DNA of 64,000 nt from Methanosarcina sp. MSH10X1. GTDB lineage: Archaea; Halobacteriota; Methanosarcinia; Methanosarcinales; Methanosarcinaceae. Below, piece after piece: positions 10,591-41,889 of this stretch. The position numbers and the translations under genes are program-made. Numbering within the stretch: the first letter of the stretch is position 1; the number at the start of each line of letters is the position of its first letter. The stretch spans positions 186,001-250,000 of the forward strand of contig NZ_SCHL01000005.1 in NCBI RefSeq assembly GCF_004099695.1. Reading direction: 5' to 3'. The notes below the pieces were generated by a model. That model saw only the letters and a program-made list of their open reading frames with translations, did not search any database and was not told the DNA's origin.

Positions 10591-12171
10591 TTATTCTCCC
10601 AGCTTACTATTATCTACGTCCTCTGAATTCGACTCACTATCACCAGTGTCCCCTGAATTATCCACATTATTTATTGTACTGCTCGAATTATCCACATTAT
10701 TTATTGTACTGCCCGAATTGTCTCCATTATTTACTGTATTATCTGAATTATCTCCATTATTTATTGTACTACCCGAACTATCTCCATTATTTATTGTACT
10801 ACCCGAACTATCCCCATTATTTATTGTACTACCCGAACTATCCCCATTATTTATTGTATTATCTGAATTATCTCCATTGTTTATCGTATTACCTGAGTTT
10901 TGCCCTATATTAACTGTATTGCCTGAAACATCTCCGTTATTCACCGTATTGTCCGAGTTATCTCCAATGTTAATGGTACTACCTGAATTATCTCCATTAT
11001 TTACCGTATTTCCGGAGTTCTGACCGGTATTAGCCGTATTACCTGACTCTCCGATGTTAATTGTGTTACCGGAATTTTGCCCATTATTCACGGTGTTTCC
11101 CGACTCTCCGGCGTTAATGGTATTTCCTGAATTCTGTCCGGCATTAATATTATTGCCCGAGTTCTGTCCCACATTAACAGTATTCCCCGACCCTCCGGTA
11201 TTAACTGTATTTCCCGAATTCTGTCCCGCATTAACAGTATTCCCCGACCCTCCGGTATTAACTGTATTTCCCGAATTCTGCCCTGTATTAACTGTGTTGC
11301 CTGAGTTCTGTCCACTATTTACTGTATTGCCTGAACTTTGCCCTGTGTTAATCGTGCTACCCGAGTTATGCCCGTTATTAACTGTATTGCCTGAGTTATA
11401 CCCGGTATTATCTGTATTTCCAGAATTCTGTCCGGTATTAACCGTGCTGCCAGCGTTCTGTCCTAGGTTAATAGTGGCTCCTGCATACTGCCCTATGTTA
11501 AATGTACTCCCCGCATACTGCCCTATATTAAATGTGCTCCCTGGATTCGTTCCGTTATTGAATGTACTTCCAGGGTTTGACCCATTGTTGAACGTATATT
11601 CTGTACTTGACCCATTATTGAACGTGCTTCCTGGATTCGTCCCGTTGTTGAATGTGCTTCCCGCGTTCGTTCCGTTATTGAATGTGTACTCTCCATTTGA
11701 CCCATTGTTTGAGTTGCTCTCTGAGTTTGATTCATTACCGGGCGTGTTGCCTGAGTTCTGCCCGCTACTTGCAGTATTCCTGGTACTCTTCCTAATGTTC
11801 ACAGAGTTTCTCGGGTTCAAGCTATTTTTAGAAACGTTTTCTGAGTTTAAGCCGTTGTTGACATTATTATCGAGATTTAGCGCATTATTGAAGGTTACAT
11901 TATTAAAAGTTACATTGTTAAAGATGTTCTCTGAACTAGGACCATTGTTAAAGGTTACATTGTTAAATATGACATTGTTAAAGGTGTTCGCCTGGTCTTC
12001 ACCTGCATTGGGTATAGTTTCGGTTTCCTGTTCCGAATAACTGTCATTCCATATGTTACTGCTGTTTCCCGTATCGCTATCGGCTGCTGCAACGGTCACC
12101 AGTGCTACAAAAAAGATTGAAATTAGAAGGTATCGTATCCTCTTTATTATATCAAATGTCTGTTTCCCCAT
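10591..12171 (-). CDS. Secreted decapeptide-repeat protein, Asn/Gly/Ser/Thr-rich
   Basis: The protein has 526 residues. A charged start followed by a hydrophobic stretch (about residues 10-30, RYLLISIFFVALVTVAAA) is a signal peptide. From about residue 60 to the end the sequence is built of 10-residue units of the type x-N-S-G-N-T-V-N-x-G, with early units using S-T-F-N-N and some 9-residue units. I count more than 30 copies. The strict period with alternating T/V/F and N suggests a beta-solenoid surface protein or adhesin. GGAGAG lies about 8 nt before the ATG. No C-terminal anchor is present, so it may be released or bound to the S-layer. I do not recognise a named family. Confidence 0.75.
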   Translation of the reverse strand: MGKQTFDIIKRIRYLLISIFFVALVTVAAADSDTGNSSNIWNDSYSEQETETIPNAGEDQANTFNNVIFNNVTFNNGPSSENIFNNVTFNNVTFNNALNLDNNVNNGLNSENVSKNSLNPRNSVNIRKSTRNTASSGQNSGNTPGNESNSESNSNNGSNGEYTFNNGTNAGSTFNNGTNPGSTFNNGSSTEYTFNNGSNPGSTFNNGTNPGSTFNIGQYAGSTFNIGQYAGATINLGQNAGSTVNTGQNSGNTDNTGYNSGNTVNNGHNSGSTINTGQSSGNTVNSGQNSGNTVNTGQNSGNTVNTGGSGNTVNAGQNSGNTVNTGGSGNTVNVGQNSGNNINAGQNSGNTINAGESGNTVNNGQNSGNTINIGESGNTANTGQNSGNTVNNGDNSGSTINIGDNSDNTVNNGDVSGNTVNIGQNSGNTINNGDNSDNTINNGDSSGSTINNGDSSGSTINNGDSSGSTINNGDNSDNTVNNGDNSGSTINNVDNSSSTINNVDNSGDTGDSESNSEDVDNSKLGE

Positions 12172-22522: not shown

Positions 22523-25500
22523 TTAGAGCGATTGAAATCGGTTCCTATAGGCTAGAATTTTCTCAGCGTATTTCGGACTGTTGCGATGCTTGAAATCAAT
22601 GGCACATACAACGAATGACGGCAGACTCGCTGAAATTTTCGACCAGATTGGGGGGTCGTCCAGTTTCCGCCAGTTCATCTTCTTTGTTCCCAGGCGCCAT
22701 TGATTCCAAACACGCACAGCCTCGCGTATACGTGAGTCTTTTTCCGGAGGGCTCACATTCCTGAGGCATGACGCTTCGGCCTGCTTAAGGCTGTATGCCC
22801 CTGTGAACAGTAACGCTCGCTTGTAATGCTCAGCGTCGAGCCAGCGTTCGGGGTTTCCTGCCTCTGCGGCATACTGAAGCGCCTTAGCCACGGTTACCGG
22901 TCCTGCATTATAAGCCAGGGCAAGCAGGCGAAGCTGTTCAGTCTCCGGGAGCTGGTTATATCGCTTCCCGCGCTCTCTCAGTACGCTCTCCATTATAGCG
23001 CGGAAGTCACGGAGCTTCTTCGTACCTGAGTCAATGGACACCGCAGGCTGCTTGTATATTTCACCCTTATCCGACTGCATCAGGCCAGTATATCCGCTCT
23101 TCGCAACGAGATTTTTATTGCCTCCCGATTCGGCTGCAATAACGCCCCGGATAAGCGCCGAATCCACACCGTATTTAGCTGCCGCCGCCTCCACAATCGG
23201 GCGATACCGCTCAACTGCAGCGATTACATTGGCATTCACCGGAGTTCCACTCACGGCTGCACTCCTGGGGTGACCGGATATCGGTGACGCCGGAGCTAAG
23301 CGCCGCACAATTGCCTCGGCTAGAGCCGACCGTGTAGCCGCGTCAAGCGTTGCATTCCAGCCCAACCCTCTGCTTGACTTAAAAGATTTCAGCGCCTGCT
23401 CGGTTTTCGCATCGAATTCACCTGGCTGTGCAAAGACCGACTGTTGTGCAATTTCCTCAAGCGCCCGTTGTGCAAGGGCGAGCTGGGTTTTGTCATCGAG
23501 CACGCCTCCCGCACCGAGGTCGTAACGTTTGCGGAAACGCTCGATTCCACCCCGGGTGAGAGGTCCCAGTTTCCCATCTACATCAAGCCGCTCTCCCTCT
23601 GTGGCATTGAGCACTCTTTGCGCGAACCTGACCAGCTCAGCTGCTGGCTTAATGGTTGCTGAAGGTGCAGAAATGCCTGGCAGTTGACCAACATGGCCTG
23701 GTGGTTTAACTATAGCAAAGTATCTGCACTTGCCCTGGTCTGGAATCACATATCCTTGCTCGTTTAATTTGAGTTTTCTCTGACCGACGGTATCTCCGGT
23801 TTTTCCCCGGTTTGGGTATGTCTGAGCCGTATTCCCACCCAGGATGACGGCGTATTTCTGGTGTACTTCGACAACAATATCACTGTGAGAAATTCCGCCC
23901 TTATCCACATTGGCAAAAGTCGTGCCAGCACAGGAGGCCCCGATTCTGGAGGCTCGATCACGACATACCAGGTCTCCTATCTCAGGTCTGACCGCTGAAA
24001 TTTCATACGCCCTGAACTTGAAAGGCTCCTGCGCCAGAGCGGCTTTTTTCGCGGCGGCTATATAACTGGTATGCAATGCAGCATAAGCAAATGCGTCCCC
24101 AGCACCAGCCTCACGCATGACATAAGAAATGAATGCTGCACTCCACGGGCTCCTGCTGGCTATTTTCCCGTCTGCATTAGTCTGGCTAAGCCCTCTGGGA
24201 TGATAATTCATCCAGTACTTACGTAAAAATACTTTCATATCCTGTTCGGTTTCACTACGAGTGCCTCTTTTCCAGTTTTCCCATTCTCTCTTCGCGACTT
24301 CAACAATGCGTTGTCGCAAAGCCGAGGAAGAAGATATCTCCTGATCCGGAGTCCGGTACAGATTTTCTTCATCCGGGTAAGTTACTTCGCGGGCTGACCT
24401 GGAAGGTGTGGAAGTATTTGGAAGTTCTGCGCTTGCGTCGGCAAGGAGCCGCCAGCCATACGCCCTCGGAATGCGAAGATGAGAAAGAGAAGTCTGCTCG
24501 ACCCGGTACCAGCGAGAAAGCTCGGATTTCGGGGGGATAGCTGCAACAAGAGCGCTGTGGAGCATCAGGCTATATCGCTGTGTCGCGGTTCCATGCCGAA
24601 ACTGCACGCGCAGCGCACCTCCGCGGTCGGGCATATAATGCTCCGGTGATTCCGTTCCAGTAGCAAGTGCTTTCTGATCACGGTCAATACGGGCTTTTGC
24701 CCATCGGATCAAGTCGGCTGGGTTCTGATAGAGCCCGTCAAATACGTGGACTTCGTCAGGATTGCTGTGACGCAGAATTTTCAACATGGCTGCACCACCA
24801 CCCGAATGGGCTGTGATAATGAGACGCCGGAGCTTAATGCTCGCAACACCTGTATGCCGGGCAAATTGATCGAGTCCGAAATTGATTAACTGTTGCAGTC
24901 CTTTTCCACTGATTAACACTGGAAAATTGTAACCTCTACCGCTTTTCCCCCCGAAGAAATGCCCCCTGGGCAAAAGTGCCAGAGTTGGTCTTGACCGTCC
25001 GGGAGTAAGGTCACGTCCTTCAGGGTCAGACCAGTTAAGGCCGCTGCGCGGCATAATATCACGGGATAGATGCAGCAGCTTACCAGCCTGGAGTGAATAT
25101 CCATGCAAATGGATAACCACATCTACACTTTCAGGCTGCACTAACATATTGTTCCATGTAAGAATCAGATCTGGACCAGAACCACGATGATGCTTCAGAA
25201 GAGATACTCTGGTCAGTTCCAGTCTGCCAGCAGGTATTTCAGGACCCTTTTCAGCCTCGAAGCCCGGCCAATTAATCTCTTCTCTATCGGGCTCAATAAA
25301 GATTTCCTCGTCGAAAAACGGCTCTTCTTCGGGAAGAAGCCCTTCCTCTTCATATAAGGCTTCTCCTCCTTCGGGAAAGAGCCCTTCTTCTTTATATACG
25401 GCTTCTTCCAGAGAATAATCGGGTTTTTCCTCTTCCGGTTCCATCCAGGCCCTCTCCGGGATAACCGTCTCTTCTTCCAGATATGTCATTTCTTCGGGAA

Positions 25501-25873
25501 TGATTTCGTTGCCTGTTTCAGCATATGAGCCCACGTCTGAGTTATAGAATTCTTCGATACCATATTCCAGATCCGGCAGTTCTTCCTCTCTGTAAATTTC
25601 ACTTTCGTCCGCCGGGAAATTGACTTCATCAGCCCATTCTTCTTCAGCGTATTCCTCTTCGAATTCCTCTTCCGATTCCTCCGGTTCAATTACAGTTGAT
25701 CTATCCTGCTCGAAGGCGTGCCTGAAAGGGTTCTCGGTTTCCAATGCTGCTAAATGAAATTCCCACCCTGTACCTGTCTCCCTTAAGAAGAGACCTTCCT
25801 CAGTGAAAGGAGAAACGAGATTCCCGGATCGATAGGGACGCAAACTGCGGCCGTTTTCTTCTTGCGAGGCCAT
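22523..25873 (-). CDS. Multidomain protein: lipase-like fold, DUF2272, peptidoglycan-binding repeats, lytic transglycosylase
   Basis: The protein has 1116 residues. Order: acidic low-complexity region (about 55-205, very rich in Glu); alpha/beta-hydrolase-like domain (about 218-480) with HLHGYS and Ser357 in TAHSGGG, where the usual first Gly of GxSxG is Ala; DUF2272 (about 515-725, SPWSAAFISYVMREAG); two peptidoglycan-binding repeats (about 745-805 and 810-855); SLT-type lytic transglycosylase (about 890-1035) with Glu915 in AAESGGN and the LALAYNAGP motif; then an 80-residue tail. It should cleave or bind bacterial murein. No signal peptide is present, so release needs another route. It is the last gene of the operon, 16 nt after the 362-residue gene, with SD GGGATGA. 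Confidence 0.9.
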   Translation of the reverse strand: MASQEENGRSLRPYRSGNLVSPFTEEGLFLRETGTGWEFHLAALETENPFRHAFEQDRSTVIEPEESEEEFEEEYAEEEWADEVNFPADESEIYREEELPDLEYGIEEFYNSDVGSYAETGNEIIPEEMTYLEEETVIPERAWMEPEEEKPDYSLEEAVYKEEGLFPEGGEALYEEEGLLPEEEPFFDEEIFIEPDREEINWPGFEAEKGPEIPAGRLELTRVSLLKHHRGSGPDLILTWNNMLVQPESVDVVIHLHGYSLQAGKLLHLSRDIMPRSGLNWSDPEGRDLTPGRSRPTLALLPRGHFFGGKSGRGYNFPVLISGKGLQQLINFGLDQFARHTGVASIKLRRLIITAHSGGGAAMLKILRHSNPDEVHVFDGLYQNPADLIRWAKARIDRDQKALATGTESPEHYMPDRGGALRVQFRHGTATQRYSLMLHSALVAAIPPKSELSRWYRVEQTSLSHLRIPRAYGWRLLADASAELPNTSTPSRSAREVTYPDEENLYRTPDQEISSSSALRQRIVEVAKREWENWKRGTRSETEQDMKVFLRKYWMNYHPRGLSQTNADGKIASRSPWSAAFISYVMREAGAGDAFAYAALHTSYIAAAKKAALAQEPFKFRAYEISAVRPEIGDLVCRDRASRIGASCAGTTFANVDKGGISHSDIVVEVHQKYAVILGGNTAQTYPNRGKTGDTVGQRKLKLNEQGYVIPDQGKCRYFAIVKPPGHVGQLPGISAPSATIKPAAELVRFAQRVLNATEGERLDVDGKLGPLTRGGIERFRKRYDLGAGGVLDDKTQLALAQRALEEIAQQSVFAQPGEFDAKTEQALKSFKSSRGLGWNATLDAATRSALAEAIVRRLAPASPISGHPRSAAVSGTPVNANVIAAVERYRPIVEAAAAKYGVDSALIRGVIAAESGGNKNLVAKSGYTGLMQSDKGEIYKQPAVSIDSGTKKLRDFRAIMESVLRERGKRYNQLPETEQLRLLALAYNAGPVTVAKALQYAAEAGNPERWLDAEHYKRALLFTGAYSLKQAEASCLRNVSPPEKDSRIREAVRVWNQWRLGTKKMNWRKLDDPPIWSKISASLPSFVVCAIDFKHRNSPKYAEKILAYRNRFQSL

Positions 25874-25889
25874 GTCTGATCATCCCGTC

Positions 25890-26978
25890 TCATGTTGTTG
25901 CAACTTTCCTTGCCTTTATATCGCGTCCTGTGATAGTGGACCAGTGGGTAATTATTGTATTCACGGTGTTCTGGAGCGGGCCGGCAACCAGAAGACCGGG
26001 TACAATTCCGGTACCACTTATTTCAATCTGGATGAGAATCCGAGAGATAGGGTCCGCGATATCAAAATAACTCTTCGATAGGCCATGAGCCGGCAAGCCA
26101 ACGCGTTGAGCAACTTTAAAGAGCCGCTGTTCCGGACTGGATGCTTCCGCTCTGAGAGACTCAATTATTGGAGAATTAAATTCCACTGTAAGATGGAACC
26201 AGGACATCATTGATACGAATGCAAATTCTTCACGCGAAAGATTGCCATTCACCCTGCGCGTCATAAGCATACTTTGCAAGCTCTCTACGAGAGTTTCGAC
26301 CTTACCTCTGTCAGTCGGGTTAACCCCGGTTTCGTTCTTGACATTTACTATTGCGACCCAGACCTCACGAAGAAACTCTTCAAATACGGGAACGAATTCA
26401 TTATTGTAAGCTTCGGCTTTGACATAGGGATAGGGCTGGTTATCGTCGGTACCATGGTTAAGATCCATGCCGAACATTCGCTGGTAAGCGTTCCGCCTTG
26501 AAGCGCGCATGTCCGAGCGGATATTGCTGGTAACCGAGATAATGGAAAATGGTAGTGGATCACGGTAAAAGAGTTCTTCTGTATTACGCAGCCAGTGTTG
26601 AGCTGCAGGTGTCGGGACGCCGAGCTTTTCACCATGCAGGTATTCATATAGAACACGCCTGAAGATTTCGTATATGCGGGTGTTCTCTATCATGTACGCA
26701 TAAATTAAATGGTCCCAGAGAACCGGTCTCCGACCTCCTGAAGGTGGGTCGATAACGGGCTTGCGAGTTTCGTTCTCGACAATGGATCGCAATTGATTAA
26801 GCCAGAAATCAGGCAACTGAGGGATATTACTTCTATGAAACGGATCTCCCAATGATTGCTTGGGAAAGTGAATTCTGTATTGCCAGGTCACTTCTAACAA
26901 TGCTGCTAGCACAGATGGGTGCTCCAGAAATAGCTTATTTGCACCCTCAGGGATACCGCCTGCATATCGTCTGAACAT
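25890..26978 (-). CDS. Island protein of unknown function, 362 residues
   Basis: I do not recognise a family. The protein is soluble-looking, mostly helical, with no signal peptide or membrane segment. Aromatic-rich stretches (VTWQYRIHFPKQ; DHLIYAYMIENTRIYEIF) and a conserved-looking NIRSDMRASRRNAYQRMFGMD segment are notable. Translation is coupled to the upstream 97-residue gene: the stop is 3 nt before this ATG and AGGAGGGG lies inside the last codons of that gene. Its place between the zincin and the murein hydrolase suggests a shared role, for example chaperone, immunity or structural part, but nothing in the sequence decides this. Confidence 0.8.
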   Translation of the reverse strand: MFRRYAGGIPEGANKLFLEHPSVLAALLEVTWQYRIHFPKQSLGDPFHRSNIPQLPDFWLNQLRSIVENETRKPVIDPPSGGRRPVLWDHLIYAYMIENTRIYEIFRRVLYEYLHGEKLGVPTPAAQHWLRNTEELFYRDPLPFSIISVTSNIRSDMRASRRNAYQRMFGMDLNHGTDDNQPYPYVKAEAYNNEFVPVFEEFLREVWVAIVNVKNETGVNPTDRGKVETLVESLQSMLMTRRVNGNLSREEFAFVSMMSWFHLTVEFNSPIIESLRAEASSPEQRLFKVAQRVGLPAHGLSKSYFDIADPISRILIQIEISGTGIVPGLLVAGPLQNTVNTIITHWSTITGRDIKARKVATT

Positions 26979-26981
26979 ATT

Positions 26982-27275
26982 TCACTCCCCTCCTGTCTCT
27001 TTTGATGAAGAGTCTTCTGAAGTCTCTTTGGTTGAAGTCTCATTAACCTGATTTTCCTGAAATTGAAACCTGGCTAAACCAGGAGGAGTCACATTACAGG
27101 GTCCCGGTAGATCCTCAAGAGCTTTTTTATCTGGTTCCGGCAGTTTCCATTGATTATCACCGGGAAATTGACCATCCGTATCCTGCAAATCTTTCCTGAA
27201 CGGTACTCGCAGTATATTCCGTATCGACCTGAACAGTTCAATAGCCTGAGTTTCTTCTGGTGTCGGTTCTGGCAT
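26982..27275 (-). CDS. Small island protein of unknown function, 97 residues
   Basis: This is a small acidic protein beginning MPEPTPEETQAIELF, with a helical N-terminal half (IELFRSIRNILRVPF), a proline-rich middle and a disordered Ser/Thr/Glu-rich tail (TKETSEDSSSKETGGE). ATG 27275 is chosen over the upstream in-frame start 27323 because AAGGGGG lies 8 nt before it and the extension would overlap the preceding gene. It could be an adaptor or chaperone for a neighbour. No family is recognised. Confidence 0.7.
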   Translation of the reverse strand: MPEPTPEETQAIELFRSIRNILRVPFRKDLQDTDGQFPGDNQWKLPEPDKKALEDLPGPCNVTPPGLARFQFQENQVNETSTKETSEDSSSKETGGE

Positions 27276-27297
27276 TACTATATCCCCCTTAAAAAGT

Positions 27298-28560
27298 TTA
27301 AGCGGCCTGCAAAGCGCCGCCAAGTCTTAGCATCCATTCTTCCTGTAACTTTATCGTTTCTGTTGTACGGTTAGCCAATGTTGCTTTTCGTAAGCCGGTA
27401 AGAGCTAACAGGCGCAATGCCTCAGTCCAGATCCAGTGCATTGAAGTATACAGGGCAGCACCAAGCTGTTGCTCCAATGCCAGAAGAGTTTCCGGTTTGA
27501 CACGCTCGGGATTAATAAGTGCAATAAGAGACCGTCCACCGAAAGATCGCATAGGCTTGCGTAGCGTAATATTGACAACATTCGTGAGCAGAGGCACTGA
27601 TTCCCTCAGTAAATATCCAGATGCCTGTGGTGCCCTCTGCAGGGAATATTGTTGCGTCCAGGAAAGGGCAAGGTCATCCCAGGGACCTGCACCATAGAAC
27701 TGCCGGCACATTTCCGCGCCGAGCAGCACTCGAAGGTAGCTTATGGGGTGCGGGTCTCCTGGAAGATATCGAAAAACAACGGACTCTCCGCCGTCCACTA
27801 CATCGTACAAAGAGGCTACACTTGCATAGCCGGTGTGTACAAAACCGAAAGCATCTGCAGCTATTTCCGGCGCCCAGCTCGCCCATGCGTCTGCAACTCC
27901 TGCTGGCGCATAAGCCAGATCGGCTTCAAGAGCAGAGGAAAGCTCTTCGCTCCAGCCTGTAATATGCGCTACTTGATGACCTGCCTCATGAATCAGTGCT
28001 GTGGGTCGATGCAGATTGTGCCGGGTTATTTTTATGGCTGCTACAGGATTTACACTGGTCTCGTCCCAGAGTCGCAGGCCGGCTTTTAAAATTGAAGCTC
28101 CTAATCCTTTGTCAAGATAGGTAAGTGTTATCGGAGCCGGCTTCCCCAGCTGGTCGAGAATTTGGGTCATACTCCGGTGCGACAGGGTATCACAGGCTCT
28201 CATGAGTCCCATCATTATCGTACTTGTGCGGGTATTAATCGCATCGGCGTAAAAGTCCAGTGTCGTCTCAACGCGCAGATACCGTTTGCGAAAAGTCAGT
28301 AATTGCTGCCTTACAATCGACAGATCGGCTATAGAGGAAGCTGAGTTAAGAGCAGTCTGCAAAAAGGTGGCTTCGCGTTTCAATCTCTCTACTGCCATGG
28401 TAAGGTGCTGTCGAATTGACAAACCGAGATAGTGTTCGAGACTGTTCCAGGCAGAAGGTGATGCCAGATCGTCCAGATCATGAAGCCGCATTGCAGCGGC
28501 AGTCCAGTGAGCCACCTGACGGGTGAGTTGAGTTCTTGTCGCAGTACCCGGATCACTCAT
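27298..28560 (-). CDS. HEAGH zincin-like metallopeptidase domain protein
   Basis: The protein has 420 residues. An N-terminal helical region (about 1-135) precedes a domain with H191-E-A-G-H195 (TALIHEAGHQVAHITGW), the zinc-binding motif of gluzincin/zincin peptidases. A downstream APEIAADAFGF (Glu232) is a likely third zinc ligand. The active-site glutamate is Glu192, so it should be catalytically competent. No signal peptide is present. The ATG overlaps the stop of the 791-residue gene by 8 nt (ATGAGTGA), implying translational coupling. It could mature operon products or be a toxin that attacks target proteins. Both are inference. Confidence 0.8.
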   Translation of the reverse strand: MSDPGTATRTQLTRQVAHWTAAAMRLHDLDDLASPSAWNSLEHYLGLSIRQHLTMAVERLKREATFLQTALNSASSIADLSIVRQQLLTFRKRYLRVETTLDFYADAINTRTSTIMMGLMRACDTLSHRSMTQILDQLGKPAPITLTYLDKGLGASILKAGLRLWDETSVNPVAAIKITRHNLHRPTALIHEAGHQVAHITGWSEELSSALEADLAYAPAGVADAWASWAPEIAADAFGFVHTGYASVASLYDVVDGGESVVFRYLPGDPHPISYLRVLLGAEMCRQFYGAGPWDDLALSWTQQYSLQRAPQASGYLLRESVPLLTNVVNITLRKPMRSFGGRSLIALINPERVKPETLLALEQQLGAALYTSMHWIWTEALRLLALTGLRKATLANRTTETIKLQEEWMLRLGGALQAA

Positions 28561-30928
28561 GCGCGTACCCCGGTGTTACCTTTATCTTCACATCAGGTGT
28601 ACTACCTGACATTTTCAGGCTTGGAAGAGAGATGCCTCTGCCTTTCAGGACCTGGCGAAGCTGTGGGAGCCCTGGTGGATTTTCAACGGTAATTAAGAGT
28701 GTTACACCATCGGCGGTATCTGCGGCAGCCTGAATGAACTCCCCTGAATGTTGCTTCAAATAATCTGAAAGCCCTTTAAGAATCCATTCATTCAGCCGCC
28801 CCAGGAGGACTTGAGGGACCAGGGATGGTAATCTTTGCAGGGCATTTACCCATTGATCCGGTGTTACGGCTTCATGAATTATCTTCAATTTTCCGGAAGA
28901 ATCCGTGAGTGCCCTGCGCAGCCCACGTTCAATAGGTTTCTGCAAATTGGCCATAACTACGCCAACGTGCGTATGCTGCCGGAGTTTCACGGCAATTTCT
29001 TGAGCGCGGATCTCACTCAGGAAAAGGAGGAACTTTATTTCGTTCTTAGGAAAATCGAATATGACTCTGCTCTTTGTTGCACTGCGTACTTTAGCCCGGC
29101 CAGGCATCGCTGAAGCCATTAGAGGGCGTTTTCCAGGAATTTCTAAATAGTAAAACCGCTGTCCAACCTCAGTAGTATAAGGGTCAACGAGGTATCTGGA
29201 ATCAGTATCTCTGCCCAGTTGAGGTTCTCCCAGCAAAATCCCTGAGGCATTCGTTGTTAGTGGGTGAAGTTGTTCATATCCATCCTGAGTACTCAAGCCT
29301 GGATTATTTTCTTCCAATCTGGAGATATCTGTCAGGCGTGTACCTGGAATGCTCTCATAAAGATGAACAATTGCTTCTACTTCTTCTCCTGGCTCTATTC
29401 CGAGTTTCTCTTCCAGAAACTCTTCCAGAGGAATACCTTCAAAGGTTTCGACAGCCGAAACTTTATGTGGTGTAATCCTTGTCGGAATTTTACGACTGAA
29501 TTTCTTGTATCTTTTTTGTCGCCCGCGAGGCATCATAATCCAGGCTCCCCGGAGATTCCTGGCTTCTCCGAGATCAGGACGTTTACGATAAATTTCCTCA
29601 GAGAGGACCTGTGGGAGGTTTGCAGTTGCAGCCTGTTCAAAGGCTTCGAGTGCAAAGCCTTCGAGAAGTTCCTGGTTCTCAAGAATGTAATCCGGGAGTG
29701 TGGCTACGCGACGCACTGTTTCTTCAACGGTAGCAGCCACAGCCGAAGAAGCGGCATGCGATTCGTCTTCAAATGTCGCTTCCAGCTGGATGAGACGCAG
29801 ACCGGCGTCTACAATTGCCTGTGAAAGTGCCTGGGTATGCTGCGGACCGACGAATTTCTGGATAAGCCTGCCCAGGAATTTTGCAAGGAAATTGACGACC
29901 TTTTTGCGGCCCATTAGTCTTATTCCAATCCTTAAAGCCGGAAGAATGGCCGGAATAAAATTTTCAATATGCGGAGTGGGATCTTCCCCCTCCTTCATTT
30001 GTTGTAGACTCTCAATAAAATGGTCTCTGGCGTTATCCAGTTCAGCCAGGGGATAAATCTCAGGAGCCTGCTGTTCAGTCAGTACCTGGGAGACTTCCAG
30101 ATCCTGCTCAATCTCAGTATGTGCGAACAGGACATCTGCAATGTGCCGGTCGAACTCGTACTGAATCTGTGAAATCTCGGAGAGCCCTGCGCTTTCTGAC
30201 AGGGGAGAATTGCCTGTGGAATAATTGTCTTCTTCAAATTCCTTCAAAAAGGGCAGACGCTCGGCCAGTTTCTTAGCTATGGGCTGGAGTTGAGAGGGCA
30301 ACTTTCCAATAGCACTTTCAATGACTCTCTTAAGTAGCGGTTTAACAAGCGGAATAAGTTTGTTAAGACCTGCCATGGCTACAGCGCTGATTCCTTTTTT
30401 TGCAAGATTAACAGCTTTGCCGGCTACTTTCCTGAACGTCTTTTTAAGTTTTCTCAGGAAATCTTCAAAATTGGGAATGGGTTCAATGGAAGGCTTATAC
30501 CGATCAACAATCTCACCAATCTCGTATTCTGAGAGGCTTTTAGGATCCCTCTGGCTTAATTCCGTAGCCAGACTCCCAAGCATAGCCTCAGCTTCCGCAA
30601 CGAGTGGGGCAAAGTGCTGATTGAGAAACCTTTCGGCTTCATAACCGACGATCCCGGGATCTCTATATTCATGTGTGAAGCGGACTTCATAAAGGGCAGC
30701 AGCCTCGCTTGCCAGACCGTACAGAGTTTCATTGAATTCCTCGTCATAAAGCTCATTGAGAAATTGAACATATTCTTCAGTTTCCGGATCGATTAAACCA
30801 CCGGCTTCCTCGGATTCGTAAATCGATAGGAATGGACTTCCTGGAGGGGTTGAAGTCTCAAGAATTTCTCGGCTTACCTCCTCCATAGCAAAACTACTTA
30901 CGTTCAGGAATGGTGCTTGATTCTTCAT
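28553..30928 (-). CDS. Large island protein with cationic amphipathic segments, first gene of the operon
   Basis: The protein has 791 residues from ATG 30928, which has GGAGGTAA 5 nt upstream; the frame continues to 30964 without SD support. The N-terminal part (about 30-140) is acidic and helical (IDPETEEYVQFLNELYDEEF). Two regions, about 158-228 and 322-362, are Lys/Arg-rich amphipathic helices alternating with Leu/Ile/Val/Ala, like membrane-active or pore-forming segments. The second half (about 500-791) looks globular with LEEFLEEKLGIEPGEEV and an alpha/beta end. There is no signal peptide. I cannot assign a family. A toxin or carrier role is inference from composition and operon context. 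Confidence 0.8.
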   Translation of the reverse strand: MKNQAPFLNVSSFAMEEVSREILETSTPPGSPFLSIYESEEAGGLIDPETEEYVQFLNELYDEEFNETLYGLASEAAALYEVRFTHEYRDPGIVGYEAERFLNQHFAPLVAEAEAMLGSLATELSQRDPKSLSEYEIGEIVDRYKPSIEPIPNFEDFLRKLKKTFRKVAGKAVNLAKKGISAVAMAGLNKLIPLVKPLLKRVIESAIGKLPSQLQPIAKKLAERLPFLKEFEEDNYSTGNSPLSESAGLSEISQIQYEFDRHIADVLFAHTEIEQDLEVSQVLTEQQAPEIYPLAELDNARDHFIESLQQMKEGEDPTPHIENFIPAILPALRIGIRLMGRKKVVNFLAKFLGRLIQKFVGPQHTQALSQAIVDAGLRLIQLEATFEDESHAASSAVAATVEETVRRVATLPDYILENQELLEGFALEAFEQAATANLPQVLSEEIYRKRPDLGEARNLRGAWIMMPRGRQKRYKKFSRKIPTRITPHKVSAVETFEGIPLEEFLEEKLGIEPGEEVEAIVHLYESIPGTRLTDISRLEENNPGLSTQDGYEQLHPLTTNASGILLGEPQLGRDTDSRYLVDPYTTEVGQRFYYLEIPGKRPLMASAMPGRAKVRSATKSRVIFDFPKNEIKFLLFLSEIRAQEIAVKLRQHTHVGVVMANLQKPIERGLRRALTDSSGKLKIIHEAVTPDQWVNALQRLPSLVPQVLLGRLNEWILKGLSDYLKQHSGEFIQAAADTADGVTLLITVENPPGLPQLRQVLKGRGISLPSLKMSGSTPDVKIKVTPGYAHE

Positions 30929-30964
30929 ACTATTACCTCCATCCACAAACTCTCTCAGGCTCAT

Positions 30965-36092: not shown

Positions 36093-36281
36093 ATGCAAAC
36101 AAGCCCGATTGAAGTTCAGAAGGCTTTAAAAGATATAGATTATCCCGTAAGTAAAAAGCAGCTCATTGAGCACGCTAAAAAACATTCCGCCAGCAGTGAG
36201 GTAATCGAGGTTCTCGAAGATCTTCCGGACAAGGAGTATACCAATGCTGCAGACGTCAGTAAGGAATTCCAGGGAAGATAA
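36093..36281 (+). CDS. DUF2795 domain protein, copy 1
   Basis: The 62-residue single-domain protein starts MQTSPIEVQKALKDIDYPVS and ends LPDKEYTNAADVSKEFQGR. The DUF2795 fold is a small helical domain of unknown role, widespread in bacteria. GGGGGG lies 6 nt before the ATG. It is the first of three adjacent, same-strand paralogues, separated from the next by 17 nt. Copies are close to identical at both ends and vary in the middle, which suggests tandem duplication. Confidence 0.85.
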   Translation: MQTSPIEVQKALKDIDYPVSKKQLIEHAKKHSASSEVIEVLEDLPDKEYTNAADVSKEFQGR

Positions 36282-36298
36282 CACAAGGGGGAAAATTT

Positions 36299-36487
36299 AT
36301 GGAAACAAGTCCTATTGAAGTCCAGAAAGCTTTAAAGGATATGGATTATCCTGCAAGCAAGGAACAGCTTATTCAGCATGCTAAGAAGCATGAAGCCAAC
36401 AAGAAAGTAATGCAAGTGCTTGAGGAGCTTCCGGATAAGCAATACGAGAACGCTGCAGATGTCAGCAAAGAATTCAAAGGAATGTAA
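36299..36487 (+). CDS. DUF2795 domain protein, copy 2
   Basis: This 62-residue paralogue of the preceding gene has the same layout (METSPIEVQKALKDMDYPAS to NAADVSKEFKGM). AGGGGG lies about 7 nt before the ATG. The middle segment (KKHEANKKVMQVLEELPDKQ) differs from copies 1 and 3 at several charged positions. Function is unknown. It is probably co-transcribed with copies 1 and 3. Confidence 0.85.
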   Translation: METSPIEVQKALKDMDYPASKEQLIQHAKKHEANKKVMQVLEELPDKQYENAADVSKEFKGM

Positions 36488-36518
36488 TTGAAGAATATAA
36501 CAGAAACGGGGGGAAATT

Positions 36519-36962
36519 ATGCACACAAGTCCTATTGAAGTTCAAAAAGCTTTAAAAGATATGGATTATCCTGCAAACAAGGAACAGCTTATTCAACATG
36601 CTAAAAAGCATAAAGCCAGCAACGAAGTATTGGAGGATCTTCAGGATATCCCGGAAAAAGAGTACACGAACGCTGCAGATGTCAGCAAGGAGTTCAAAGG
36701 AGATAAAGGAAGAAGTGGCCGGGAAGAAGGAGAGGGGATAAGCCACAGAGGTGCTGGAAGCCCTCCTATTGAAACTCAGAAAGCTTTAAAGGGTATGGAT
36801 TATCCTGCAGGGAAGAAGGAAATTATTAAGAAAGCCAGAGATAACAAAGCCCCTAAAGAAGTAATAGAGATTCTCGAGGATATCCCTGACAGGGAATATG
36901 AGAATGCTGCAGACGTCAGCAAAGAGTTCAGAGGGGAGACAGGACACATCGAGGAGAGATAA
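36519..36962 (+). CDS. Tandem DUF2795 protein with two domains
   Basis: The protein has 147 residues: one DUF2795 domain at about 1-62, a Gly/Arg/Glu-rich linker (GDKGRSGREEGEGIS) and a second domain at about 80-141 starting SPPIETQKALKGMDYPAG. GGGGGG precedes the ATG by 6 nt. The architecture looks like a fusion of two single-domain copies, giving five DUF2795 domains within 1.5 kb when the ATA-start gene is included. Confidence 0.85.
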   Translation: MHTSPIEVQKALKDMDYPANKEQLIQHAKKHKASNEVLEDLQDIPEKEYTNAADVSKEFKGDKGRSGREEGEGISHRGAGSPPIETQKALKGMDYPAGKKEIIKKARDNKAPKEVIEILEDIPDREYENAADVSKEFRGETGHIEER

Positions 36963-38271: not shown

Positions 38272-38625
38272 TTATTCCTGTTCCTGTGTCTCGAGTTGTC
38301 TTTCTAATTGCGTTATATCCAGCAATACTCTGAAGAGTGTGTCTTTTCCTGTATCTCTTAACTCGATTTCTACGGGTTGGGCTAACGTATCCTTAACGGC
38401 TCTCCATTCCTCTCTGAATATATCAATGATTTCCCACGGACCTGCAGAACTATCCCTGACCCTGTCGCGGGCGAGTTGCAGAAGCAGATGCTTCTTTTCC
38501 GTGGGCGTCAGACTCTCTATTCCTTTGACTTCCAGCTCACTTACCACCGCGTCACCCATTTTTGATCGGGCTACCATTGGCTCTCCTGGCTCATCTTTTA
38601 TTTCGTTTGTTACTTTCCTTTCCAT
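38272..38625 (-). CDS. Unknown protein in the TIR operon
   Basis: The 117-residue soluble protein is charged and mostly helical, with ESLTPTEKKHLLLQLARDRV and a C-terminal helix DITQLERQLETQ. ATG 38625 is preferred to TTG 38628, with GAGAAGAGG 6 nt upstream. It begins 32 nt after the TIR gene stop on the same strand, so it is the last gene of a three-gene unit. No family is recognised. A regulator or partner of the TIR protein is possible. Confidence 0.7.
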   Translation of the reverse strand: MERKVTNEIKDEPGEPMVARSKMGDAVVSELEVKGIESLTPTEKKHLLLQLARDRVRDSSAGPWEIIDIFREEWRAVKDTLAQPVEIELRDTGKDTLFRVLLDITQLERQLETQEQE

Positions 38626-38657
38626 CAATTCAACCTCTTCTCCGTTTCAATCCGTGG

Positions 38658-39218
38658 TCAGAGCACAGGCCTGAAAGTTCTCGGGTCCAGTTGAATATTT
38701 CTCTGACAGTAACTGCATCTTGTCACGAGGTGTGTTCCTGCTAGAAGCGCTCTCTCTACTTCTTCCTCGGGTGAGATGTACTGAGTCAATTCTTCCCCGC
38801 AATAGGGACACTTTATCTTCAGCCAGTCAAGCCTGGTAAGCTGCCTCAGATTCTGTATCAATTTCCCCAGGGCATCTTCGTAAGCCTCGGGCGAGAAAAC
38901 AATGGGCTGGAGGTGATGTATCAGGACAGGCAATTCCACTCCTGCCTCTATAAGCGGAATTACTAGCTGGTCAGCTCCGACTGCAAGGCCGATTTCCTGA
39001 TTCACTTCCGGCGACCTCATACCTTCCTGTGTGAGGATCGGAATAAAACAATCTGACTGACGAATACCAAAACGTATCCTATCGCCAAGGGAAAGAATTC
39101 GAGCCTTCCTGTACAGCGCCGAAAAGCTCTCCAACTCCACAGCCCAGAGAGCCCTGACAAGTTCCTGAGCAAGTAACTCGTCCTGCTCGCAATGAGCTAT
39201 GTAAACTTTTGTAATCAT
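38658..39218 (-). CDS. TIR-like domain protein with C-terminal zinc ribbon
   Basis: The protein has 186 residues. The first about 125 match a TIR-type fold: KVYIAHCEQDELLAQELVRAL as the first strand and helix, then SDCFIPILTQEGMRSPEVNQEIG, in which Glu75 is the candidate catalytic glutamate of NAD-cleaving TIR domains. A zinc ribbon follows with C137-x2-C140 (CPYCGEE) and C168-x2-C171 (CSYCQRN). TIR proteins in prokaryotes often act in anti-phage defence as NADases or in signalling. That is family knowledge, not shown here. It lies between a proline-rich small gene and a 117-residue gene on the same strand. Confidence 0.8.
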   Translation of the reverse strand: MITKVYIAHCEQDELLAQELVRALWAVELESFSALYRKARILSLGDRIRFGIRQSDCFIPILTQEGMRSPEVNQEIGLAVGADQLVIPLIEAGVELPVLIHHLQPIVFSPEAYEDALGKLIQNLRQLTRLDWLKIKCPYCGEELTQYISPEEEVERALLAGTHLVTRCSYCQRNIQLDPRTFRPVL

Positions 39219-39239
39219 ATTTACTATACTCTATTGCGG

Positions 39240-39380
39240 TTACTTCGTTCTCTTTGATTTTGGGTGATGCTCCGGTTCTGGTTCCGGTTCGGGTATAGGC
39301 TCAGGCGGAACAACAGGTTGAGGCTCAGGTTCAGGTATAGGTTCAGGCTGGAAAGATGTTTCTTTGTTTTCTTCTGGCAA
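39240..39380 (-). CDS. 46-residue Pro/Glu-rich small protein upstream of the TIR gene
   Basis: A TTG with AAAGGGGG 7 nt upstream opens a 46-codon frame: P-E-E-N-K-E-T-S-F-Q, then alternating PEPIPEPEPQP and PEPIPEPEPEPEHH, then a basic end K-S-K-R-T-K. The Pro-Glu alternation resembles rigid extended linkers such as those in TonB. The stop is 21 nt before the TIR start, so it leads the TIR operon. Function is unknown. Confidence 0.6.
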   Translation of the reverse strand: MPEENKETSFQPEPIPEPEPQPVVPPEPIPEPEPEPEHHPKSKRTK

Positions 39381-40806: not shown

Positions 40807-41067
40807 ATGTCCCTGGACGATGATATAAAATTATCTGTAGTAGCTGTAGCCTGCACGCTAATACTTGCAACCGTACCAGAGAACCTGATTCATGTCCAGC
40901 TCGATTTTGCATCGAGATATTCGCCTTTACTGGTTCTTGCGTTTTACATGTTCCTTAAAGATGATGAGAAAAATAATATTCTACCCTGGTATCTTTTGAT
41001 GATTTATGCAACTGCCGGAGTTTTGATTCTTAAAGTGATTAACTCACTTACCAGTGGTACGATGTAA
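40807..41067 (+). CDS. Small membrane protein with two to three segments
   Basis: The 86-residue protein has hydrophobic stretches at about 9-22 (LSVVAVACTLILATV), 40-50 (LLVLAFYMFL) and 60-78 (WYLLMIYATAGVLILKVI). It resembles other Methanosarcina small membrane proteins, with no assigned function. The ATG has a weak AAGGTC upstream. The next 400 nt are a repeat array. Confidence 0.65.
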   Translation: MSLDDDIKLSVVAVACTLILATVPENLIHVQLDFASRYSPLLVLAFYMFLKDDEKNNILPWYLLMIYATAGVLILKVINSLTSGTM

Positions 41068-41889
41068 TCCATTATTGAATACTAAATTCTCTCTTTTTCA
41101 CCACAAGCCTTTTCAAAAAATCCTTGACCGCAAGCCTTTTCAAAAAATCCTTGACCGCAAGCCTTTTCAAAAAATCCTTGACCGCAAGCCTTTTCAAAAA
41201 AGGCTTGAGCGAAAACTTTTTCAAAAAATCCTTGACCGCAAGCCTTTTCAAAAAAGGCTTGAGCGAAAACCCCCTCTTGCGGGTGACAACCGGTGCAACG
41301 CAAACTTTTTCAAAAAAAGTTTGATCAAAAACGCATGATTTATCTAAACCGGTGTAATCGGAGCGTGATAAACCGGTGCAACGCAAACTTTTTCAAAAAA
41401 AGTTTGATCAAAAACTCATGCTTTATCTAGACCAGTGTAACCAGAGCGTGATCGACCGGCGCAACGGTCGCGGCACAACGATCGCAGGACAACGATTTTG
41501 ATCAAGCAATGCCACGCTTGCGCTCAAGAGGATTTAGGTTCACAGGTTCATTTCCTTAATATGGGAGGGAGATACCATTTTTAATATTGCTTTTTTTGGA
41601 AGCCTCAGGGAATAAAATAGTCGTCGTCAGTAGATCTGCCACCAGTAAATCTGTTACTAATGGGTTTATTATTGAGTAGCTCTTCTCAGAACCCTGAATT
41701 CGAAGATTTCAGAGTTATTTCTTATTTCTCGATCCTTCCCCCACTTATTCCAACAACTTTAAAAGCAATGCCCATAATGAAAATGTGATTCTTCCCGGCA
41801 GATCAGGCTTTACAATTCCCTGATTATTCCTTAAGAAACCGGGCTGATTTTCCGGACTTTTAACCCTATAAGCTTTATGAGAGATTAAA
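41068..41889. other. Gene-free region carrying a repeat array and the thi4 leader
   Basis: The repeat array is annotated separately (41104-41490). After it, about 400 nt of AT-rich DNA lead to thi4. I looked for a thiamine-pyrophosphate riboswitch there and did not see the conserved CUGAGA and pairing elements. Short frames coding repetitive Phe-Lys-Lys-Ser peptides across the array are artefacts of the repeat. Confidence 0.5.
41104..41490. repeat. Second array of the hairpin repeat family
   Basis: Three 27-bp units (starting caagccttttcaaaaaat) at 41104-41184 are followed by the aagccttttcaaaaaaggctt hairpin twice, then two copies of a degenerate 110-bp-type unit with aactttttcaaaaaaagttt. 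The array ends in the same GC-rich tail, gcaacggtcgcggcacaacg, as the array at 19441-20044. Copies here are less uniform, so this is an older or recombined version. Confidence 0.9.

Follow-up and report, generated by a model that had tools for sequence, protein, structure and literature searches.

Background

To our knowledge, prokaryotic TIR domains have been discussed almost solely as defence or virulence NADases. Two archaeal TIR proteins, TcpA and TcpO, are enzymatically active: TcpA removes nicotinamide from NAD and from NAD-RNA in a Glu-dependent manner, whereas TcpO acts on NAD but not on NAD-RNA (PMC10937652). For Sulfolobus, it has been proposed that uncharacterised NADases convert NAD-RNA into ADPR-RNA (PMC10663502). 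Our literature search found no paper on a Methanosarcina TIR-zinc-ribbon protein. Here we analyse such a protein, encoded in a window of 64,000 nucleotides from Methanosarcina sp. MSH10X1 (the whole stretch of DNA studied, contig NZ_SCHL01000005.1, positions 186,001 to 250,000), which a preliminary description had placed in a three-gene operon and tentatively linked to anti-phage defence.

Organization of the three-gene locus

The three open reading frames of that description were all recovered on the minus strand of the window, within 1.1 kb and in the order Pro-Glu (PE) peptide, TIR-ribbon protein and orphan protein, with intergenic gaps of about 20 bp between the first two genes and about 30 bp between the last two. 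The features of the locus are the following:

39240..39380, minus strand: PE peptide gene; 46 aa; TTG start, Shine-Dalgarno AAAGGGGG; kept in relatives; dN/dS about 0.21
38658..39218, minus strand: TIR-zinc-ribbon protein gene; 186 aa; ATG start; TIR_2 match at E 1.1e-9; AlphaFold pLDDT 83.5; dN/dS 0.086
38835..39218, minus strand: TIR domain, residues 1-128, from Pfam, the AlphaFold model and structural alignment
38994..38996, minus strand: codon of Glu75, at the position of the catalytic Glu of TIR enzymes; identical in 74/74 aligned sequences
38661..38825, minus strand: linker Trp132 and zinc ribbon CxxC-(27)-CxxC, residues 132-186; conserved from Methanosarcina to haloarchaea
38272..38625, minus strand: orphan protein gene; 117 aa from ATG; no family match; model pLDDT 84.6

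Since the median dN/dS is 0.21 for the PE peptide, 0.09 (0.086) for the TIR-ribbon protein and 0.16 for the orphan, we regard all three genes as real. The PE peptide consists of PEPIPEPEP repeats followed by a basic tail. It is found ahead of the TIR gene not only in Methanosarcina but also in several related genera, among them two that have no orphan gene, and its homologues span 43 to 49 codons, with the TTG start and a GGGGG/GGAGG element kept in nearly all of them. In M. mazei, TTG makes up roughly one fifth of the starts among unannotated small ORFs (PMC11456600). The conservation of the peptide, its TTG start with a strong Shine-Dalgarno and its dN/dS of about 0.2 establish it as a coding gene and rule out a chance ORF. 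As to a conserved promoter 5' of this gene, the alignment clearly shows the Shine-Dalgarno alone. The peptide is probably a stiff adaptor of the polyproline type.

For the orphan protein, a TTG one codon before the ATG would give 118 aa. Its predicted structure comprises a helix, a beta-meander and a C-terminal helix, and no match was found in Pfam, PADLOC or NCBIfam. A comparison with the COMM-domain fold gave a best Foldseek E-value of 0.025 and a VIA-align Z of 3.4, which is below noise.

The TIR domain and the zinc ribbon

The TIR-ribbon protein matches Pfam TIR_2 (PF13676) with 39.2 bits against a curated cut-off of 28. All 31 of the homologues aligned have a TIR_2 match, and some members also match PF08937. 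Its AlphaFold model has a mean pLDDT of 83.5, lower at residues 31-50, and in Foldseek and VIA-align comparisons residues 1-138 of the model match SPARTA, SARM1 and plant TIRs with Z 12-15 over about 125 residues. The first domain is thus a TIR domain, as had been proposed, rather than another fold. The closest TIR folds found, SPARTA, Cat1 and SpbK, all belong to defence NADases.

The residue put forward earlier as catalytic, Glu75, does occupy the catalytic position: in the model it sits in the helix of residues 70-81, after the strand of residues 57-62, which matches the place of the catalytic Glu of TIR enzymes, and it is invariant in the 31-sequence alignment. In a broader alignment it is identical in all 71 proteins that bear the ribbon, drawn from three archaeal lineages (Methanosarcinaceae, haloarchaea and a family of the same class as Methanosarcina, here called f7, which we take to be Methanotrichaceae) and in the three solo TIRs that complete this set of 74. 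Glu75 also aligns with the Glu of the WxxxE motif of the haloarchaeal forms. The Trp of this motif is present in 12 of 12 haloarchaeal homologues and is missing in the methanogen forms, where position 71 is E, K, R, T or another residue. According to one report, conservation of the WxxxE Trp is weaker among TIRs that are non-catalytic or that make no cyclic product (PMC11374754). Its loss may therefore lower the likelihood that the methanogen TIR is active, with catalysis altered or lost; if the methanogen form is active, the missing Trp makes a linear product more likely than a cyclic one, by analogy with the TIRs of that report.

The four-cysteine ribbon was likewise borne out, since Cys137, Cys140, Cys168 and Cys171 are invariant across the 31 homologues. 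Among the 71 ribbon-bearing proteins, Trp132 and three of the cysteines are identical in every member, and the fourth cysteine in 70, the sole exception being one Cys171-to-Tyr change. From this pattern we infer that the ribbon binds zinc. A known ribosomal or RNA-polymerase ribbon was also considered and rejected, as the matches to eS27, RNA polymerase P, Hsp33 and PyrI were all non-significant.

Distribution and inheritance

Our profile searches, which at the phylum level covered Halobacteriota, identified the full-length TIR-ribbon protein in 27 of the 31 genomes of Methanosarcina and in 46 of about 50 genomes of f7, a denominator that includes four genomes without a match assigned to this family by numbering. 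In both groups the gene is single-copy. Its presence is uneven in Methanosarcinaceae outside Methanosarcina. In Halobacteria it was found in 56 of 242 genomes, always as a single copy, and 52 of these belong to one family (f23), in which it is widespread. It is important to note that these counts rest on draft assemblies. A scan of public genome contigs, with patterns derived from the Methanosarcina protein that detect close relatives only, gave Methanosarcina as the nearest.

The orphan has a narrower range: it was identified in 32 of 238 genomes of the class, in three genera only, and within Methanosarcina in exactly those 27 genomes that carry the TIR gene, both being absent from the other 4 of 31. 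This joint presence and absence, together with the preservation of the order peptide-TIR-orphan in Methanosarcina, upholds the three genes as a conserved unit. Judging from these sequence searches, all three genes together are confined to Methanosarcina and two genera close to it, and the TIR-ribbon gene alone is old.

In the gene tree, the Methanosarcinaceae and the haloarchaeal group each form a clade, and f7 is paraphyletic to Methanosarcinaceae; on this phylogenetic evidence the TIR-ribbon gene is vertically inherited. The remaining TIR_2 genes found in the class have a patchy distribution, vary in number and lie in ORFs of widely differing size. A mobile or viral origin was rejected, as viral contigs, plasmids and phages gave no match, the viral scan having used two short patterns that miss distant relatives. 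Several near-complete Methanosarcinaceae genomes are without the gene, which is therefore dispensable in some members. For one Methanosarcina genome (G005) an assembly gap was considered and rejected, because its TOBE gene is found in another setting, on an 83-kb contig without the operon; the absence looks real, an unassembled piece being the less likely reading. Two other Methanosarcina genomes carry a frameshifted TIR-ribbon gene (L049:1849-2407 and L065:8001-8550), owing to either assembly error or recent loss.

Gene neighbourhoods

In f7, the TIR gene lies directly upstream, and on the same strand, of a PF02598 RNA methyltransferase-uL3-uL4-uL23-uL2 array in 18 of 42 informative loci (those with enough downstream sequence; the ribosomal proteins were named from their sequences), with gaps of -6 to about 330 bp. 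One further locus has a single gene between the TIR gene and the ribosomal-protein superoperon. Because the 18 loci span 8 of 11 genera while the genes upstream of the TIR gene vary between loci, this arrangement looks like an ancestral one that has been retained, rather than an inert one. This linkage was found in f7 only, and neither in Methanosarcina nor in haloarchaea. The haloarchaeal neighbours, named by eye from sequence, include triosephosphate isomerase and an MBF1-like protein; the homologues encoded near triosephosphate isomerase (L109-L120) have a full WxxxE and a ribbon that differs in its first spacing, with C-x4-C followed by CxxC.

In the window, the ORFs around the operon include a TOBE protein and a zinc-finger protein, and a PADLOC scan of ten neighbour genes gave no defence-type match; its one hit was weak and concerned a model of metabolic type. 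Other features were observed in the same stretch. Tandem DUF2795 genes, two single and one fused pair, occupy 36093-36962 (plus strand) and also lie near the operon in relatives. A tandem DNA repeat at 41054-41386 can be read as KPFQKILDR-like units in one strand direction and as FFEKACGQG-like units in the opposite direction. Four large ORFs follow one another at 22523-30964 (minus strand): one, of 1116 aa, has DUF2272, PG-binding and SLT transglycosylase domains, which is odd for a murein-less archaeon, and the other three (362, 420 and 803 aa) have no Pfam match. Finally, a 526-aa protein of Asn/Gly-rich repeats of the NTGQNSGNTVNNG type is encoded at 10591-12171 (minus strand).

Possible function

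We tentatively favour a housekeeping role, in which the methanogen TIR-ribbon protein would be an enzyme that cleaves NAD or NAD-capped RNA and is targeted by its ribbon. This preference, possible rather than probable, is held because the gene is near-core, vertically inherited, under strong purifying selection, non-mobile and, in f7, linked to ribosomal-protein genes, and because TcpA and Sulfolobus offer precedents. The TIR domain would release nicotinamide, either from NAD(P) or from RNA capped with NAD, and the ribbon would attach to RNA, to the ribosome or to some other partner and so confine the TIR activity there; the outcome would be to tune RNA turnover or translation to the NAD state of the cell. 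In Methanosarcina and its close genera, the PE peptide and the orphan would have been added as accessory genes, possibly as partners or restrainers of the enzyme. A more specific version, in which a ribbon-targeted, nicotinamide-cleaving TIR acts at NAD-capped RNA or the ribosome, is co-expressed with the ribosomal-protein genes and couples RNA turnover or translation to the NAD state, is improbable.

The main rival, by reason of the missing WxxxE Trp, is a non-catalytic scaffold or regulator, whose TIR domain would bind partners or a nucleotide ligand and whose ribbon would bind RNA or protein, Glu75 being structural or ligand-binding. The methanogen forms have lost a Trp that is less conserved in non-catalytic TIRs, yet have kept the fold and the ribbon, and the PE peptide and the orphan resemble binding partners. 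Nevertheless, Glu75 is identical in all the proteins across two classes and is kept more strongly than the rest of the motif, and we consider a scaffold unlikely, if a serious contender.

The second rival is a form of the anti-phage role suggested in the preliminary description: an antiviral abortive-infection NADase, in which the ribbon or the partner proteins would sense infection and trigger TIR-driven NAD depletion. The closest folds are those of defence NADases, Glu75 is conserved, and the small partner genes could act as regulator or sensor. However, a near-core, vertical, purified, non-mobile and ribosome-linked pattern argues, on genomic grounds, against a typical defence gene. The TIR-ribbon gene is single-copy and near-universal in Methanosarcina and f7, unlike the patchy TIR_2 genes of the same class, its dN/dS is 0.09, and the scans of viral contigs, plasmids and phages gave no match to it. 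Furthermore, its neighbours in other lineages are a ribosomal operon and housekeeping genes, the ten window neighbours include no defence-type match, and the best PADLOC match of the protein itself has an E-value of just 0.06. The suggestion of defence thus fits this gene poorly, and we rate it as slightly less likely than a scaffold.

The most doubtful reading is an N-glycosidase of the Nuc_deoxyrib_tr/MilB type, acting on a nucleoside or nucleotide other than NAD: the Foldseek matches include MilB (a CMP N-glycosidase) and 5 of 31 members weakly match Nuc_deoxyrib_tr, but the TIR matches are more consistent in both sequence and structure.

If the favoured housekeeping reading is true, a vertically inherited, near-core and ribbon-fused methanogen TIR, often encoded at the start of the ribosomal-protein superoperon, would represent a non-defence use of the domain, and the question of which archaeal enzyme converts NAD-RNA into ADPR-RNA could be tested directly in haloarchaea and in Methanosarcina, which is genetically tractable.

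Comparison with known TIR systems

In structure, the TIR domain comes closest to the TIR-APAZ protein of SPARTA (Z about 14-15, rmsd about 2.7 Å). The 186-aa protein differs from it in having a four-cysteine ribbon in place of APAZ, and no Argonaute-like gene adjoins it, the neighbours being the PE peptide, the orphan, the TOBE protein and the zinc-finger protein; membership in SPARTA was therefore rejected. With Thoeris ThsB it shares a TIR-like domain, and PF08937 in some members. The PADLOC match to ThsB is weak (E 0.06), the adjacent genes encode the 46-aa peptide and the 117-aa orphan rather than a ThsA-type partner, and the TIR protein is here ribbon-fused and near-core, in agreement with the earlier remark that the locus does not correspond to Thoeris. 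The archaeal TcpA and TcpO and the bacterial AbTir have, like the TIR-ribbon protein, a Glu at the catalytic position of the TIR domain. No zinc ribbon has been reported in these three proteins, whereas in the TIR-ribbon family the C-terminal ribbon is conserved, the gene is near-core and, in the methanogen forms, the WxxxE Trp is missing.
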